From: Natrialba chahannaoensis JCM 10990
GTDB taxonomy: Archaea > Halobacteriota > Halobacteria > Halobacteriales > Natrialbaceae
Direction: 5' to 3'
DNA length: 47,601 bases
Assembly (NCBI RefSeq): GCF_000337135.1
Contig: NZ_AOIN01000080.1
Span: 10,522-58,122 of the forward strand
Under the pieces are notes generated by a model. It did no database searches. It was not told the origin of the DNA and saw only the letters and a program-made list of their open reading frames with translations. This document shows positions 21,437 through 35,313 of the stretch, piece by piece (positions within the stretch are counted from its first letter, which is position 1; every line of letters begins with the position of its first letter). A program made the position numbers and the translations under genes.

Positions 21437-21956
21437 GCAAATACGATTTCGTTCTCCTCACGGTTGCTGGAGACAACGTTCCGGTTCAGCCGTCGGTAGT
21501 GGCCTTCGGCCTGCTCACGCGTGTAGTCCACGCTTGAGTGGACGGGGTTGAACTTGATCGGATGGCGCATCACCTTGCTGGGAACGCCGCCGAACCCGCC
21601 AAACAGGTCGAAAACAATACAGCCGTCAGCTTCCCTCAGGTCGTCAGTACGCGCGCCCTTCTCATGGTATCCGGCCTCGAGATTGCGGTCGTAGACGCCG
21701 TCCTTGCGGAAGTTTGCGTTCCCTCTCCTAGGTGGCAGGCGGTGCCGCCGTACTCCTGCACAATCTCTTCCATCCCATGACGTAGCCACCCGAAGAGCGG
21801 GAACGCCGGGATGATCCCGCCGATCTGGTTCTGCGGATCGTCGTCTTCGTAGTTTCCGTTACTGGCGTGATTCCGATCGGTCATGATCGAGTCGCCGACC
21901 ACCAGCAGGTCGGTCTGGGTTCGCACGAACACGTCGCGGTCGATATCGTCAATCAT
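21437..21956 (-). pseudogene. RAMP-superfamily (Cas7-like) protein, frameshifted and truncated
   Basis: About 173 residues can be reconstructed. The first frame (21956 down to about 21722) has LLVVGDSIMTDRNHASNG and then IGGIIPAFPLFGWLRHGMEE, the hydrophobic-Pro-x-GWLRHG pattern typical of RAMP proteins of class 1 CRISPR effectors. Reading must change frame at the G run near 21721-21726; adding one G restores GEGNANFRKDG and continues through FDLFGGFGGVPSKVM and YRRLNRNVVSSN. Similarity ends near 21437 at the SDR remnant, and no natural stop is reached. Translation would start 8 bp inside the end of the RuvC gene. Assignment to Cas7/HRAMP-type proteins is from motifs and memory. The frameshift could be a sequencing error. 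Confidence 0.55.
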
Positions 21957-22611
21957 CTACATGGTGGGCCAGTTCGGTTGTCTTGCCGAGATCGACTCGC
22001 TGGGCAATACTCACAGCGGCACTTCGGTCGCGACACACGGTGCCGACGGAGCAGTTTTCGGTGGTACACTCCAGCGTGTCGTTCTTGAGGCGACCAAGCT
22101 CGCCACAGACGTGGCACTGCTGGGTCGTATACTTTGGATTGACGTACGTCACGGGAATGCCGGCCGCCTGCGCTTTCACCGCAACCGCATGCTGGAGGGC
22201 TGGGAGCAACCACGTTCCAATATCGTCGACTGTCCGGTGTTCCCACAGTGTCGCCTCACAGAACGACAAGTCCTCGAGCGTGATCGTCGGTGCGGGGAAC
22301 TCCTGGGCGTAGCGAACGACGCGGACAGCGGCATCGTAGACCTGTGGACGGATCTGGTGCCAGAGTGCCGCGAACAGCTGAGTCTGTCCGTTGGTGGTGT
22401 CAAACTTCGCGCCTTGAAGTGCCTGCATCGCCTCGACGAGGGTTTCGTGGCGCTTCCGAACGTGGTCGCCTTCGATCACGAGCGCTGACTCCGGAGCAGC
22501 ATCCGCTGGGGCCGCGGCGACGAGGTTTTTCACTCCGATGTCCACACCGACCGGCGTGGATTCCAGTGTTCGATCTCGACAAGTCGTTGCGGAGAGCGGT
22601 GTGCTGCTCAT
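21949..22611 (-). CDS. RuvC-only TnpB-family nuclease (N-terminally reduced)
   Basis: A 220-aa protein covering only the C-terminal half of TnpB (IS200/IS605 OrfB, ancestor of Cas12). All three RuvC acidic residues remain: D24 in VGVDIGVKNL, E113 in TLEDLSF and D195 in CRDRSAAVSI. The zinc ribbon C166-x2-C169 ... C182-x4-C187 is complete. Typical TnpB is 370-430 aa; the WED/REC part that binds the guide RNA is absent. The ATG overlaps the stop of the preceding gene by 4 bp, and that gene fills the upstream DNA, so this is an arranged start rather than a simple deletion. No TnpA is nearby. It could be a domesticated nuclease of the operon or a transposon remnant. Confidence 0.8.
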   Translation of the reverse strand: MSSTPLSATTCRDRTLESTPVGVDIGVKNLVAAAPADAAPESALVIEGDHVRKRHETLVEAMQALQGAKFDTTNGQTQLFAALWHQIRPQVYDAAVRVVRYAQEFPAPTITLEDLSFCEATLWEHRTVDDIGTWLLPALQHAVAVKAQAAGIPVTYVNPKYTTQQCHVCGELGRLKNDTLECTTENCSVGTVCRDRSAAVSIAQRVDLGKTTELAHHVDD

Positions 22612-22922
22612 CGGTTACTCACCCACTCCTCGCGGTCAGCTGGATCGGAGGTTACAATCTCGTCGAGTGTCTCCTCGAGTTCGGTGGCCGTCCGGAAGGC
22701 GTCGAGATTCAGTGACTCGATCACCGGCCCGTCCTCCGCGTGGACGTGCCAGACCTTCGTCGTTCGGGCGTCGTCGACCTGGCTGATCAGCACCAGATCG
22801 TGGTACTCGAGAGCGACACCATGTGGGTACGCGCCTTCCATCATTTGTGTGATGAAATCGAACGTCCAGTACGGGACATCCTCACCGGACGCGATCACAT
22901 CCGCCGACTCGGGGAGACTCAT
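22608..22922 (-). CDS. Uncharacterised 104-aa protein of the RAMP/RuvC operon
   Basis: I do not recognise this family. The sequence is soluble and acidic, with a compact core: PYWTFDFITQMMEGAYPHG, then VLISQVDD and KVWHVHAEDG, then a predicted C-terminal helix (ATELEETLDEIV). Three closely placed histidines (YHD, WHVHAE) could be functional. It overlaps the zinc-ribbon-like gene upstream and the RuvC gene downstream by 4 bp each (ATGA), so the product is made in step with both. Codon use is normal for this genome and the frame is intact. Confidence 0.75.
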   Translation of the reverse strand: MSLPESADVIASGEDVPYWTFDFITQMMEGAYPHGVALEYHDLVLISQVDDARTTKVWHVHAEDGPVIESLNLDAFRTATELEETLDEIVTSDPADREEWVSNR

Positions 22923-23134
22923 CGTGGTGCCTCCTTGCCACAGTGGCAGCCGCCGTCGCGAAGATTGAGACGGCGCATCGCTTCGGCACCGCAACCGATG
23001 CGGCGGAAATAGTCGTAGCCCGTCGCGTTTCCGTACTTGTTGAATTTGGGGATCGGCCCTTCGATTCGGCGTTCGTTGGTCGATTCGTCCGTGGTACCGG
23101 AAGTCTGAAGTCCGGCAGATATCTCCATTGACAT
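22919..23134 (-). CDS. 71-aa zinc-ribbon-like protein, first gene of the RAMP/RuvC operon
   Basis: A small protein with a flexible Ser/Thr/Glu-rich first 25 residues, then a compact segment GPIPKFNKYGNATGYDYF followed by RRIGCGAEAM and GGCHCGK. The spacing suggests a four-cysteine zinc ribbon, but the position expected for the first cysteine (three residues before IGCG's Cys) is Arg, encoded CGC where TGC would give Cys. It may therefore have lost zinc binding. It is translated 4 bp into the next gene. Directly upstream is the folded inverted-repeat element at 23150-23220. Confidence 0.7.
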   Translation of the reverse strand: MSMEISAGLQTSGTTDESTNERRIEGPIPKFNKYGNATGYDYFRRIGCGAEAMRRLNLRDGGCHCGKEAPR

Positions 23135-23149
23135 GGGTTTCTGGCCTCA

Positions 23150-23220
23150 GAAGCCCGGCCCAGGTGGCTCCAACACCTGGGCGTTTCCTGCGACGGTTAC
23201 GTCCCGAAGGGCCGGGCTTC
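23150..23220 (-). ncRNA. Candidate structured RNA or leader in front of the RAMP/RuvC operon
   Basis: On the minus strand this segment begins GAAGCCCGGCCC and ends GGGCCGGGCTTC, a perfect 12-bp inverted repeat (23209-23220 and 23150-23161). Inside are an 8-bp hairpin, CCCAGGTG (pairing 23174-23181 with 23159-23166) with a 7-nt loop, and a C(TTCG)G tetraloop sequence near 23204-23211 that is stable only when the minus strand is transcribed. The 8-bp hairpin shares three bases with the outer stem, so the two compete at their junction. It ends 15 bases before the first start codon. Alternatives are a plain leader hairpin or a mobile-element end. Confidence 0.45.
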
Positions 23221-23315
23221 CGTATACCATCTGCTATGCAGCATACCGCAATAAGTGTTGTCCCCTCTGCCCCTGAGCAGAAGGTTGAAGAGAGATACTT
23301 GCGTCTTACAGACCA

Positions 23316-23549
23316 ATGAGCGAAGATCGGGAAAGAAACGAGGGTGGGCGATTCGAGCCCGAACACACCGATGATGATGTGCTCGATGCGGTTCGAGAAC
23401 ATGACCCCGCGGGCACAAAAGAAGTGGCTGATGAGCTTGGAATCGCCCGACAAAGCGCAGATTATCGCCTTCGACGTCTACTGGATGAGGGTCATGTCTC
23501 GAAGAAGAAGGTCGGAAATTCTCTGGTCTGGTCGGTTGTACGAGAGTAA
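23316..23549 (+). CDS. Small winged-helix DNA-binding protein
   Basis: A 77-aa protein with one helix-turn-helix: DVLDAVREHDPAGTKEVADE, then LGIARQSADYRLRRLLDEG as turn and recognition helix, then a short wing (KKKVGNSLVWSV). The GRFEPEHTDDDVLDA opening is common to small haloarchaeal regulators often encoded next to a toxin-like partner. The intended partner is probably the interrupted frame 14 bp downstream. It is divergent from the RAMP/RuvC operon across a 181-bp gap and could regulate it. Confidence 0.8.
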   Translation: MSEDRERNEGGRFEPEHTDDDVLDAVREHDPAGTKEVADELGIARQSADYRLRRLLDEGHVSKKKVGNSLVWSVVRE

Positions 23550-31557: not shown

Positions 31558-32915
31558 TGAACCTTCAGGAGCGCATCGCTCGCCGACGATCGGCACACCA
31601 GGGACGGACAGTAATGGTCGACCGCGACCATCTGAGCCCTATCGTCCACCGTCCAGAGCCGATCGGCCGCGGTCCCGTCCTGGAACAGTTACTCGACGAA
31701 CTTGAGCCCGTCTTCGACGGTGATCTACCGGAGCCGGTCGCCGTCGTCGGTCCGCCGGGATCGGGCACGTCTGCGATCGTCACTGCGCTGTTCGATGCGC
31801 TCAACGACCGACTTGGCGAATCGAGCCGATCAATTGCAACGACGACGCGTGCGGGCAGCACCGGTCCGGTGACCTGGTTCGTCTACGTCGACGGCCGCCG
31901 CGTCGAGAGTGCCTTCGCGTTCTATCAGGCTGTTCTCTCGGTGATTTCGGCAGAACCAGTGCCTGAGAGTGGAATTGGGACGGACGATCTCCGCGACCGG
32001 CTGACTACACGCCTCGCGCGCCATGATCGCCGGGCTATCGTCGCCATCGATCACCACGACGAACCCGAAACGCTTCGATACGAGCGGGCCAGAGAGCTCC
32101 TCGAACCAGTCAGTGACAGTGTCGCGACGATGGCGGTCGGACAGTCGACGCCAGAGAACTGGCAGCCCGCCCACGTCGAGAACAACGGCGGTGCAGGCCA
32201 GATTGGGGCCGAAAACGAGGCCGACACCGACGAGGACTACCCGACAACCAGAGACAACAGAGCGCAGCTGAGGGGGTCGGTCGTCACCGTTCCGGCGTAC
32301 CGCCATCACGAACTCGTCGACGTTATCACCGACCGCGCCTCGACCGGCCTCGCCGCGGGCGTCCTTGACCACGAGTCCGTGCGCGAACTCGCCATCTGGG
32401 CCGACGGCAACGCCCACGACGCACTCGCCGCGCTCTTCGGCGCGGCCTGTCGCGCCACCGAAACCAGCACAACCCGTATCGAGGACACCCATCTCGAAGC
32501 GGCGCGCAACGCGGTCCCCGACGACGGTGTCCACGTCGATCGCGCGCTTGCACTCTCTGAGACGCGCCAGCAAGTGCTCGTCCACCTCGTCGACGTCGAC
32601 ACCGACAGCCGACCGATCCGGGAAGTCGCGGCCGCCATCGCCGAACGGTCGACACTCACCAACGGCACGGTCAAGCGCTTCCTCTACGAACTCGCAGACC
32701 GGGGCGTCATTGAACGCGTCCCGCTTCCCACGACCGGCAGTGGCCGCCGGCCGAGTACAGTCGAACCTCGCTTTCCGACGCTCGTTTTCGAAGCGCTCAC
32801 CTCAGCGGTGACCGATACGGCAAGCGATACAGAGACGGGCGAAATAACCGATAGAGACGCGGGGACGGACACAAACGAGGAGGCAGACACCAACACGAAT
32901 ACGAGCACAAACTAA
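31557..32915 (+). CDS. Orc1/Cdc6-like ATPase with altered Walker A
   Basis: A 452-aa protein laid out like archaeal Orc1/Cdc6: the opening PIVHRPEPIGRGPVLEQLL, an AAA+ core, then a C-terminal winged helix (about residues 325-405, REVAAAIAERSTLTNGTVKRF). Walker A reads GPPGSGTS (residues 65-72), with Thr71 where the catalytic Lys belongs. Walker B-like AIVAIDHHDE is near residue 160. ATP hydrolysis is therefore doubtful and it is unlikely to be the main replication initiator. No origin-like repeats are seen around it. One-base overlap with glpC makes it co-expressed with glycerol genes. The tail is Thr/Asn/Asp low complexity. Confidence 0.75.
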   Translation: MNLQERIARRRSAHQGRTVMVDRDHLSPIVHRPEPIGRGPVLEQLLDELEPVFDGDLPEPVAVVGPPGSGTSAIVTALFDALNDRLGESSRSIATTTRAGSTGPVTWFVYVDGRRVESAFAFYQAVLSVISAEPVPESGIGTDDLRDRLTTRLARHDRRAIVAIDHHDEPETLRYERARELLEPVSDSVATMAVGQSTPENWQPAHVENNGGAGQIGAENEADTDEDYPTTRDNRAQLRGSVVTVPAYRHHELVDVITDRASTGLAAGVLDHESVRELAIWADGNAHDALAALFGAACRATETSTTRIEDTHLEAARNAVPDDGVHVDRALALSETRQQVLVHLVDVDTDSRPIREVAAAIAERSTLTNGTVKRFLYELADRGVIERVPLPTTGSGRRPSTVEPRFPTLVFEALTSAVTDTASDTETGEITDRDAGTDTNEEADTNTNTSTN

Positions 32916-32997: not shown

Positions 32998-35313
32998 ATG
33001 ACGATTGAGTTTGCGGCAGTCACCGATCCGTCAGGGCTCGAGTTCCACGATTCGATCGAGCAGCGACATCTCCGCGTCGGCACACCGGAGACAGTGTCAC
33101 CGACCACAGTCGATCCGCAGGCGTTTCGCTTTCCGGTCAATAAAGCCTGCACAATACTGACCGACGAGATTCGGTTCGACCAACCCTATTCCGTGACGAT
33201 CCACGACGAAACGGGCCGAACCGAATCAAACGTCGGTGTCGGCGGACACACCACACTTGAGGACCGACCGCAGTTCGTCGGGCTTAGCGGCCCGATCAAA
33301 CTCTACTGCCGCATCGATACCGCGGCGACGGTTGACATCGGTCTCACCGCTGTCCGAATCGATCTCGAGCACGAGACGACGGTCACGATCGGCGCACGCT
33401 CGTTGCACGACCGACCCGCAGGGACGATCACGACGCCACCGGACATCGAGTCGATGGCAGCAGCACTCTCTGCGTTCCCCTCCGCGCTGAAGAGTACCAC
33501 ACCTGAACGGACGTGGCCGACGCTTCGCGGCCACCCACCACTGATCGAATTGGGTGACACGCTCGAGATCCCGGACGCGGTCAGGAAATCCGATATCGGA
33601 CCTGCAACGGGTGCTAGGATCAGAGCAGTCTCAGATACCGGCACCCTGCCGGCCGACGAGACAACGCTCACGGGCAACAAAGCGGTTACAGAGACAGATC
33701 AGCTAAATGGATTAGCGACGACATCAACCGCTGGCGAACGTGAGGCCGAGGGTGAAGCAGAAATCAAATCCAAAGCCAAAACCAAACCAGCAAACGAGAG
33801 CATCACGATCACCGTACCGGAGCGGTACCTCACGCTCTTTCAGGCTGCACCGCTCGCGTTCTTCCTCGGCGCTCGGATCCAACCCGGCACCGAGCCTGCA
33901 CTCGAGACGCCACTGTTCGAGTACCCGCTCCCGAGTGATGAGACGTTCGGCGACGAGATTGCCGACCTGCTCAAGCGGTTCTTCTTCCTCGACTGTCTCA
34001 CCCGAACGGAGGGTATCTTCCAGTACAACCTTCTCGAGCGCGCGGAACTCGAAGACGAGTTGCCGTTCGAGTTCGAGGAGACCTACGACGAGCCGTTACC
34101 CGAGCGACTGGCGCGGTATCTTGAGGTCCCGTTCGATCTGATCGAGACCCACGCACCCCGATGGCCGCTGACGGCCCACATTCCACCGGAGCCGGAGAGC
34201 ATTGAGCTGTTGCCGTTCATCGTCAACGAACTCGGAATTGTCCGCCCCTCGCGCGGCGAAGCACCGCCAGAGCCGCCGGGGACGCCGGCAGCCGATGCAC
34301 AGCTCGTTCGGTCGACGAGCGAAGTGCCACCCGCTGCGATCGACCGCTCACCCGCTCCATCGCCGTCGCCCTCACCAGGCGCTCCACCGGACGAATCCGC
34401 GTTCGTCGTCCCCGACGTGACCGACGAGTCCGTCGAACACGCCTGGTTCGGTAACAACGTCCCCCAGAACGCCTCGAAGGCGACCATCGAGGCCTACCGA
34501 AACCAGCTGGACCGTGACACGCGAAACGAGTCAATCGAAATTCTCCTCGTTTGTAACGACGCCCGGATGCTCGACGAGCACGACCTGCTCGACGATACCT
34601 ACGGAAACCGGGAGGAACTCCCCTTCACGATCGACTCCGAATTCGGCGTCGACAGCGACCACCTCGAAACTCTCCTCACCGAAGGCGGGTACGATTTCGT
34701 CCACTACATCGGCCACGCGACCGAAGATGGCCTGCGCTGTCCCGACGACAACCTAGACATCCGGACACTCGAGTCGGTCGACGTGGGCGTCTTCTTCCTG
34801 AACGCCTGTCGCTCCTACCAGCAGGGACTCGCGATGATCCGCCGCGGTGCGTTCGGCGGTGTCAGCACGTACGGCGATGTCGCCAATGAAGATGCCGTCG
34901 AAGCAGGTGAAACGATGGCCCGATTGCTCAATCGAGGCTTCCCGCTTCGAGGGGCACTCGAGATCGCTCGCCAGAATACAGCACTCGGTGAGCAGTATCT
35001 CATCGTCGGCGATGGGTCGGCCGATATTGCGCAGTCCGACGGTGGTGCCCCTGCTATCGTCAAACTCGACGCAGGCGATAGACAAATGTACGACTTTGCT
35101 GTCCAATCGTACTCAACGAAAGAGTTTAAATTAGGTACAGCGACGGAGTCGAATTGTCCTTCAGTTGAAGACTGGCACCTTAGTCCCGGTTATACGCCAT
35201 TTTCGACCATTGACCAAGTCACTGTTCGGGAGTATTTGTCGTGGAATGAGTTGCCTGTCCTCATAGGTGGAGACCTCTACTGGAATGACGGGGTCGGCAC
35301 TTTCGACATATAA
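32998..35313 (+). CDS. CHAT-domain caspase-like protease
   Basis: A 771-aa protein. The N-terminal part (to about residue 165) is beta-rich and unassigned. A disordered middle with Lys/Ala and Pro/Ser repeats follows, and the C-terminal CHAT peptidase domain spans about residues 510-690. The catalytic pair is visible as H573 in VHYIGHATEDG and C604 in FFLNACRSYQQG, with GGVSTYGDV after it. CHAT proteases in bacteria often act in defence or programmed death by cleaving a small partner. The divergent 44-aa membrane peptide next door is the obvious candidate partner, but this is inference. A TTTTTAA element and a GGAG site precede the ATG. Confidence 0.85.
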   Translation: MTIEFAAVTDPSGLEFHDSIEQRHLRVGTPETVSPTTVDPQAFRFPVNKACTILTDEIRFDQPYSVTIHDETGRTESNVGVGGHTTLEDRPQFVGLSGPIKLYCRIDTAATVDIGLTAVRIDLEHETTVTIGARSLHDRPAGTITTPPDIESMAAALSAFPSALKSTTPERTWPTLRGHPPLIELGDTLEIPDAVRKSDIGPATGARIRAVSDTGTLPADETTLTGNKAVTETDQLNGLATTSTAGEREAEGEAEIKSKAKTKPANESITITVPERYLTLFQAAPLAFFLGARIQPGTEPALETPLFEYPLPSDETFGDEIADLLKRFFFLDCLTRTEGIFQYNLLERAELEDELPFEFEETYDEPLPERLARYLEVPFDLIETHAPRWPLTAHIPPEPESIELLPFIVNELGIVRPSRGEAPPEPPGTPAADAQLVRSTSEVPPAAIDRSPAPSPSPSPGAPPDESAFVVPDVTDESVEHAWFGNNVPQNASKATIEAYRNQLDRDTRNESIEILLVCNDARMLDEHDLLDDTYGNREELPFTIDSEFGVDSDHLETLLTEGGYDFVHYIGHATEDGLRCPDDNLDIRTLESVDVGVFFLNACRSYQQGLAMIRRGAFGGVSTYGDVANEDAVEAGETMARLLNRGFPLRGALEIARQNTALGEQYLIVGDGSADIAQSDGGAPAIVKLDAGDRQMYDFAVQSYSTKEFKLGTATESNCPSVEDWHLSPGYTPFSTIDQVTVREYLSWNELPVLIGGDLYWNDGVGTFDI

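Follow-up and report, generated by a model that had tools for sequence, protein, structure and literature searches.

A strongly folded element lies immediately upstream of a minus-strand operon with RAMP- and RuvC-type genes in Natrialba chahannaoensis JCM 10990, which raises the question of what such an element does there. A preliminary description of the 47,601-nucleotide stretch of DNA analysed here (the window) proposed a guide or scaffold RNA, and named a leader controlling expression and a transposon end as alternatives.

The geometry described earlier is correct in its main points. The 12-bp inverted repeat is perfect (GAAGCCCGGCCC at 23150-23161, with its reverse complement at 23209-23220), its arms have no other exact copy in the window, and it encloses the inner hairpin that we call P3 (AGGUG/CACCU, extendable to 9 bp). 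On the minus strand the 3' arm stops 15 bases ahead of the ATG at 23134-23132, which opens the first gene of the operon. Positions 23150-23220 fold to -51.9 kcal/mol as the plus strand (z -3.5) and to -51.6 kcal/mol as the minus strand (z -3.8), and none of 200 dinucleotide shuffles was as good in either case. Since both strands fold beyond chance, folding energy alone cannot pick the strand; the minus strand was chosen on the basis of the promoter, the ATG and the covariance model. A UUCG tetraloop previously thought to make sense only on the operon strand was abandoned as a strand marker: the predicted fold does not place these bases in a tetraloop, and relatives do not conserve them (UUCG, CUCG, CUUG, UUGG). 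The limits of the element also had to be redrawn: the 71-nt fold stands, but only as a core. The full leader of about 95 nt (23227-23132, minus strand) comprises a three-way junction of P1, P2 and P3 and a second hairpin, P4, which had been overlooked, and the element continues into the first ORF. The features of the locus are as follows.

23316-23549, plus strand: divergent small winged-HTH gene, candidate repressor (Pfam HTH_20, 2e-5, just under the cutoff)
23250-23255, minus strand: TATA-like box CTTATT of the operon promoter (sequence reading)
23132-23227, minus strand: whole leader RNA, from predicted transcript start to ATG (covariance models: R1, 23.5 bits; R2, 32.7 bits, E 5e-6, the window element being among the R2 training sequences)
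23209-23220, minus strand: P1 5' arm GAAGCCCGGCCC (inverted repeat, MFE fold)
23199-23205, minus strand: P2 5' arm GGGaCGU (MFE fold; covariation)
23179-23184, minus strand: P2 3' arm ACGCCC, preceded by a conserved GGAA loop motif (MFE fold; relatives)
23174-23178, minus strand: P3 5' arm AGGUG (MFE fold; covariation)
23162-23166, minus strand: P3 3' arm CACCU, loop UUGGAGC (MFE fold; covariation)
23150-23161, minus strand: P1 3' arm GGGCCGGGCTTC (inverted repeat, MFE fold)
23148-23156, minus strand: P4 5' arm GGGCUUCUG, in competition with the P1 3' arm, which it overlaps (9 bp, 1 mismatch; P4 covariation)
23135-23143, minus strand: P4 3' arm CAGAAACCC, last base adjoining the ATG (ATG-abutting in 75 of 81 elements)
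22919-23134, minus strand: first ORF, a 71-aa Cys-containing small protein (MSMEISAGLQTSGT...) (ORF call; relatives)
23098-23109, minus strand: conserved in-ORF block, +26 to +37 from the A of the ATG, part of the element (81 loci)
22608-22922, minus strand: second ORF, 104 aa, overlapping the first by 4 nt (ORF call; relatives)
21949-22611, minus strand: RuvC/TnpB-like ORF with zinc ribbon, 220 aa (Pfam PF07282, 5.9e-11; NCBIfam guided_TnpB, 2.3e-17)
21447-21956, minus strand: broken HRAMP cas7-like gene in two frames (G000:C80:31969-32253 and 32238-32477)

When the RuvC protein was used as a query, 16 loci were found in other genomes and on other contigs of the same genome. The same fold precedes the first ORF in each of the well-matched operons, while the sequences of the arms differ (for example GAAGCGCGG...CCGUGCUUC, GAGAACACGAGGC...GCCUCGGGUUCUC and GGUAAGGAAAG...CUUUCUUACC). 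A covariance model, R1, was constructed from seven RuvC-linked relatives and searched against 391 genomes of the haloarchaeal class. MAFFT alignments (A1 and A2) put P1 out of register by one base from subtype to subtype; a single subtype was therefore used to build the model, and the covariance model served to align the others. Matches at E<=1 were found in 175 of the 391 genomes and 57 of the 86 genera; the number of genomes fell to 127 at E<=1e-3 and to 101 at E<=1e-6, these counts being inflated by related sequences and the E-values of covariance models built here being rough. A further 60 loci were retrieved for analysis. In a sample of the phylum, 12 of 197 genomes matched at E<=1e-3, all within the order of the known matches. 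The leader RNA is conserved across the order Halobacteriales, and it also occurs in viruses. DNA patterns, mostly one loose pattern, selected 83 IMG/VR contigs; four of them match strongly (76-88 bits), and the other 79, which do not match, double as a specificity control; a type-I DNA pattern had no match in IMG/VR. In the virus ChaoS9 a copy adjoins an HTH gene where an operon begins (54.9 bits), and another lies on plasmid pNRC200 of Halobacterium salinarum NRC-1 at 219,855-219,771, ahead of VNG_RS11530 (89.9 bits). Between about a quarter and nearly half of the haloarchaeal genomes sampled contain the RNA, as do a named virus and a plasmid of a model organism.

The Rfam search gave no match over the element, either for the window at the gathering threshold or for 20 relatives at E<=1, and no earlier description of the leader RNA was found in the literature searched, subscription journals lying outside its reach. 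The window hairpin is one copy of an uncatalogued haloarchaeal structured-RNA family. Within its own genome, DNA BLAST detected no second copy of the element's sequence, and a scattered generic repeat was rejected on this ground, while structural relatives were found on contigs C51, C55 and C82 by the model and on C8 and C100 by eye. The preliminary description had foreseen that the same hairpin, scattered far from RuvC and RAMP genes as a generic repeat, would tell against a guide. Copies far from such genes do exist and count against the guide idea, but they are not a generic repeat. On a Halocatena marina plasmid (L169, NZ_CP109786, 13170-14518), three copies of the RNA lie within 1.4 kb, each ahead of its own ORF and one of them on the opposite strand.

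Compensating base changes in relatives had been suggested as the check on the element, and covariation proved strong in two alignments, both fitted to the model and hence biased toward the modelled structure, with counts that related sequences inflate. In the A5 alignment (76 elements) standard pairs fill 95.1% of the pair cells, both sides have changed at 18 of 20 pairs (128 versus 27 cells), and the covariation score is 0.310, compared with 0.120 when shuffled (0 of 500 shuffles) and at most 0.074 for slid controls. In A6 (52 elements, most of them absent from the training set) both sides have changed at 19 of 20 pairs (213 versus 66 cells) and the score is 0.543, compared with 0.151 when shuffled. 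When every column pair of A5 was scanned, the P1-P4 helices came out among the top ranks. Unpaired bases are also conserved: AGAA in L2, a U in L3 and CCGA in J3/1. Comparison of relatives thus demonstrates the fold, a conserved and covarying secondary structure of the kind that defines a cis-regulatory mRNA leader. The same data bear on whether the element acts as DNA, as a recombination site, a transposon end or an operator dyad. Unrelated first genes do share the leader and their first codons, as if cargo had been swapped downstream. However, the compensatory changes, which include G-U pairs, preserve hairpins and not sequence, and the promoter is fixed upstream and the ATG downstream. With the element sitting between a conserved promoter and an ORF, and no mobile-element boundary seen in the loci examined, the transposon end proposed earlier falls away, and a DNA-level role in general is hardly credible.

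P4 re-uses the 3' strand of P1, and its last base directly adjoins the ATG in all but six of the 81 elements. Its pairing is kept in 83.5% of cells, below P1-P3, and its covariation is 0.277 versus 0.103; the pair at columns 123-138, which belongs to P4 and lies outside P1, shows 32 double changes. Four elements (L127, L143, L155 and L160) have lost the outer part of P1 and retain P4 through compensating changes. Among further elements the ATG is at the 3' end in 46 of 46 (chance 0.22 each) and P4 is present in 34 of 46, so that both P4 and the position of the ATG are seen by comparison. The energy of the fold with P4 minus that of the fold without it has a median of -0.8 kcal/mol and lies within 3 kcal/mol in 55 of 74 elements, as calculated, like the exclusivity of P1 and P4, with a general energy model at 37 C and not for halophile conditions. 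The overlap of P1 and P4, the covariation of P4 and the near-equal energies suggest that the leader may adopt an alternative structure at the initiation site, and since the long P1 and P4 are predicted to be mutually exclusive and nearly equal in energy, a two-state switch would follow. Two IMG/VR elements (L251 and L252) match the leader strongly (84-88 bits) and have no clear P4 ahead of the ATG, a point against the switch; they are natural variants that bear on the role of P4.

To place the transcript start, we aligned 81 elements at P1. A BRE (AA, -36/-35) and a TATA box (TTTATW, -32 to -27) appear at a fixed distance, about 30 nt upstream, which predicts a transcript start about 1-5 nt before P1; the TATA-like box of the window is about 2-3 nt further upstream than the consensus. 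With a start just before P1, the leader RNA would be the 5' end of the mRNA, and the distance of the promoter together with the ATG at the 3' end indicates that it probably is the 5' end of the downstream gene's message. At many loci a small divergent gene starts about 100 nt upstream of the leader, often encoding a winged-HTH or other short regulator-like protein. Dyads such as TTTGCNNNNNNGCAAA recur around the TATA box and start region upstream of many leaders (L130, L113 and L127, for example) and look like operators for the divergent regulator.

Of the readings offered earlier, it is the leader controlling expression that these observations favour: an RNA at the predicted 5' end of the mRNA that stops at the start codon and covaries strongly. 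We propose, with a probability of roughly 0.6, that it is a bistable 5' leader, a two-state switch that sets translation of the first ORF and gates the operon. From sequence, we infer the following course. Transcription would start at P1, so that the mRNA would begin with the leader RNA. A stem would be packed directly against the AUG in the P4 state, and a single-stranded stretch would precede the AUG in the P1 state. The choice of state would fall to a ligand, a protein or a ribosome-linked event, sensed through the conserved junction and loops, and the state would set initiation on the first small ORF. Overlapping start and stop codons would then gate the whole operon, so that mobile and defence genes under a repressor would also be controlled after transcription. 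Mechanical gene calls place an overlap of 1, 4 or 8 nt between the first two ORFs in 45 of 68 operons, which is consistent with translational coupling.

Haloarchaeal mRNAs are mostly leaderless. A conserved leader that abuts the start codon is for that reason a testable case of archaeal RNA-based translation control.

Conservation does not end at the ATG. The block WWNANNNYNYCG, at +26 to +37, lies at a fixed distance from the ATG in unrelated first ORFs (81 loci). Among 44 non-redundant first ORFs these positions stand out, with z up to 10 at +36/+37, where the conservation ends. Column-pair and mutual-information scans for a pairing partner of the block gave no convincing helix, and it is not accounted for by the P1/P4 switch. 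A hairpin in the start of the ORF (GCCGG...CCGGC vs GGCGG...CCGCC) was considered and rejected as a feature of the family, as it is clear only in ORFs of the MSMKTSAGLQ type. The main rival to a translational switch is a leader that acts on elongation, termination or mRNA stability, as a put-like antiterminator or a 5' stabiliser. Such an action would suit a cargo-independent leader at the predicted 5' end of long, unrelated phage- or plasmid-like operons beside small regulator genes, but it accounts neither for a P4 stem ending at the ATG nor for conservation into codons 9-13, and we regard it as unlikely. The HK022 put RNA is a structured RNA at the 5' end of mobile-element early transcripts. 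The haloarchaeal leader resembles it in that position and differs in its fold and in having a helix that abuts the ATG.

A metabolite riboswitch, whose junction and loops would bind one small molecule, could also account for a three-way junction that has conserved unpaired bases and for an expression platform placed at the ATG. This is improbable, because the downstream genes are a changing mobile and defence cargo with no pathway or metabolic theme; having no known ligand, the leader is not filed as a riboswitch. Translational riboswitch and thermosensor-type leaders share with it a structured 5' UTR whose helices exclude each other, one of these lying at the start codon; the haloarchaeal leader probably works like a translational riboregulator of this kind. 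It differs from them in being archaeal, in lacking a known ligand, a metabolic gene set or an Rfam match, in conservation that runs about 37 nt into unrelated ORFs, and in a P4 strand that carries no Shine-Dalgarno-type motif.

We then return to the proposal that the RNA is a guide. It would act in trans as a guide or scaffold for the RuvC nuclease or for HRAMP Cas7/Cas5, freed from the 5' end of the operon transcript. HRAMPs are described as haloarchaeal RAMP systems without arrays (PMC12669027), and the available text of the HRAMP accounts (PMC8730458, PMC12669027) does not mention an RNA component. The window operon is itself probably a decayed HRAMP locus: its cas7 is split in two frames and the subsequent HRAMP genes are absent. 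Of the divergent Cas7 and Cas5-like genes that mark an array-less HRAMP, the window has Cas7 fragments; p246 and p302 were not found there, and the set is complete in relatives. An HRAMP core gene lies downstream of 30 of 76 leaders. In a diverged HRAMP clade the leader was found upstream in the correct orientation at 20 of 20 loci tested, some of them weak (13-26 bits); in the near clade it was found at 12 of 20 loci where it had not been located before, and most other HRAMP loci have it. It also precedes mini-RuvC genes without HRAMP (L048-L051, L073, L074 and L076).

Against a guide, the operons behind most leaders are unrelated, and 62 of the 101 RNA-positive genomes (E<=1e-6) have no HRAMP Cas7, as detected with a single Cas7 query. 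Non-HRAMP operons contain methylases, a PD-(D/E)XK/helicase pair, Mrr, LAGLIDADG/homing endonuclease and HNH-type genes, pentapeptide-repeat proteins and many unknowns. Close relatives of the RuvC protein (>=50% identity) occur in about a dozen genomes, and the RNA in 101-175. The anatomy is equally unfavourable: a guide for HRAMP would show a variable segment joined to a scaffold and would be restricted to genomes with the effector, whereas the leader is a paired element of conserved layout from promoter to ATG, in which no unpaired stretch is both variable and long enough for a guide (P4 loops are mostly 3-13 nt, and the predicted 5' end is about 1-5 nt from P1), and it is widespread beyond such genomes. 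A guide also leaves the strict coupling to the ATG unexplained. We therefore rejected this role on distribution and anatomy and consider it very improbable. Because the operons are unrelated and Cas7 is so often absent, the RNA belongs to a whole class of mobile and defence operons and does not serve a single nuclease as its guide. HRAMP operons bear the leader, and the leader is not confined to HRAMP, for which it is a candidate regulatory element open to testing.

The omega-RNA of TnpB lies at the 3' end of tnpB, overlapping the end of the gene and the right end of the element. The leader resembles it in that a structured RNA shares an operon with a TnpB-like RuvC/zinc-ribbon protein. Unlike an omega-RNA, it does not lie at a tnpB 3' end, nor is it tied to a TnpB-type nuclease: it stands at the operon's 5' end, three ORFs ahead of where the RuvC gene stops in the window and in a like position in the relatives examined, and it occurs without the nuclease and with no adjoining guide.

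The bistable leader could have a wider role. One RNA switch would then serve mobile-element and defence operons as a shared control module, sensing infection, cell state or a dedicated RNA-binding protein and licensing translation of interchangeable nuclease cargo, with an RNA signal that runs past the start codon as far as codon 13 of unrelated proteins. We offer this idea tentatively and give it a modest chance. The leader does mark operons with many new defence and mobile genes, and the covariance model can therefore serve to find them.

The early-lytic leaders of the Halobacterium virus phiH1 (T4, and T1 with its antisense Tant) are comparable in setting, an early operon beside a repressor gene. 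The T4 transcript (L170, MK002701) has an annotated start at 34556 and its ATG at 34730, a longer leader of 174 nt, and the model scored it at just 7.1 bits (E 1.3). This is insufficient for a proven homologue, and we keep it as a suggestive look-alike. By eye, a three-way junction (CUGACGAAGG/CCUUCGUCAG) can be drawn at 34550-34640, beginning 2 nt upstream of the T4 start, with the P3 loop CUGGUAU.

Two features of the cargo can be added. At L041, L045, L046, L047 and L056, and in the window (21949-22611), a 220-aa protein of TnpB-like RuvC/zinc-ribbon type lies just before HRAMP cas7 or overlaps it. The commonest HRAMP partners named in a review are HNH and PD-(D/E)xK nucleases (PMC12669027), so the TnpB-like protein may be a less known partner. 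A small zinc-finger-like first protein of the CPVCGAVGLPERI type occurs at two HRAMP loci (L145 and L151), at a nuclease/helicase locus (L123) and at an Mrr locus (L139), and its presence ahead of differing effectors suggests modular exchange of cargo behind a constant leader.
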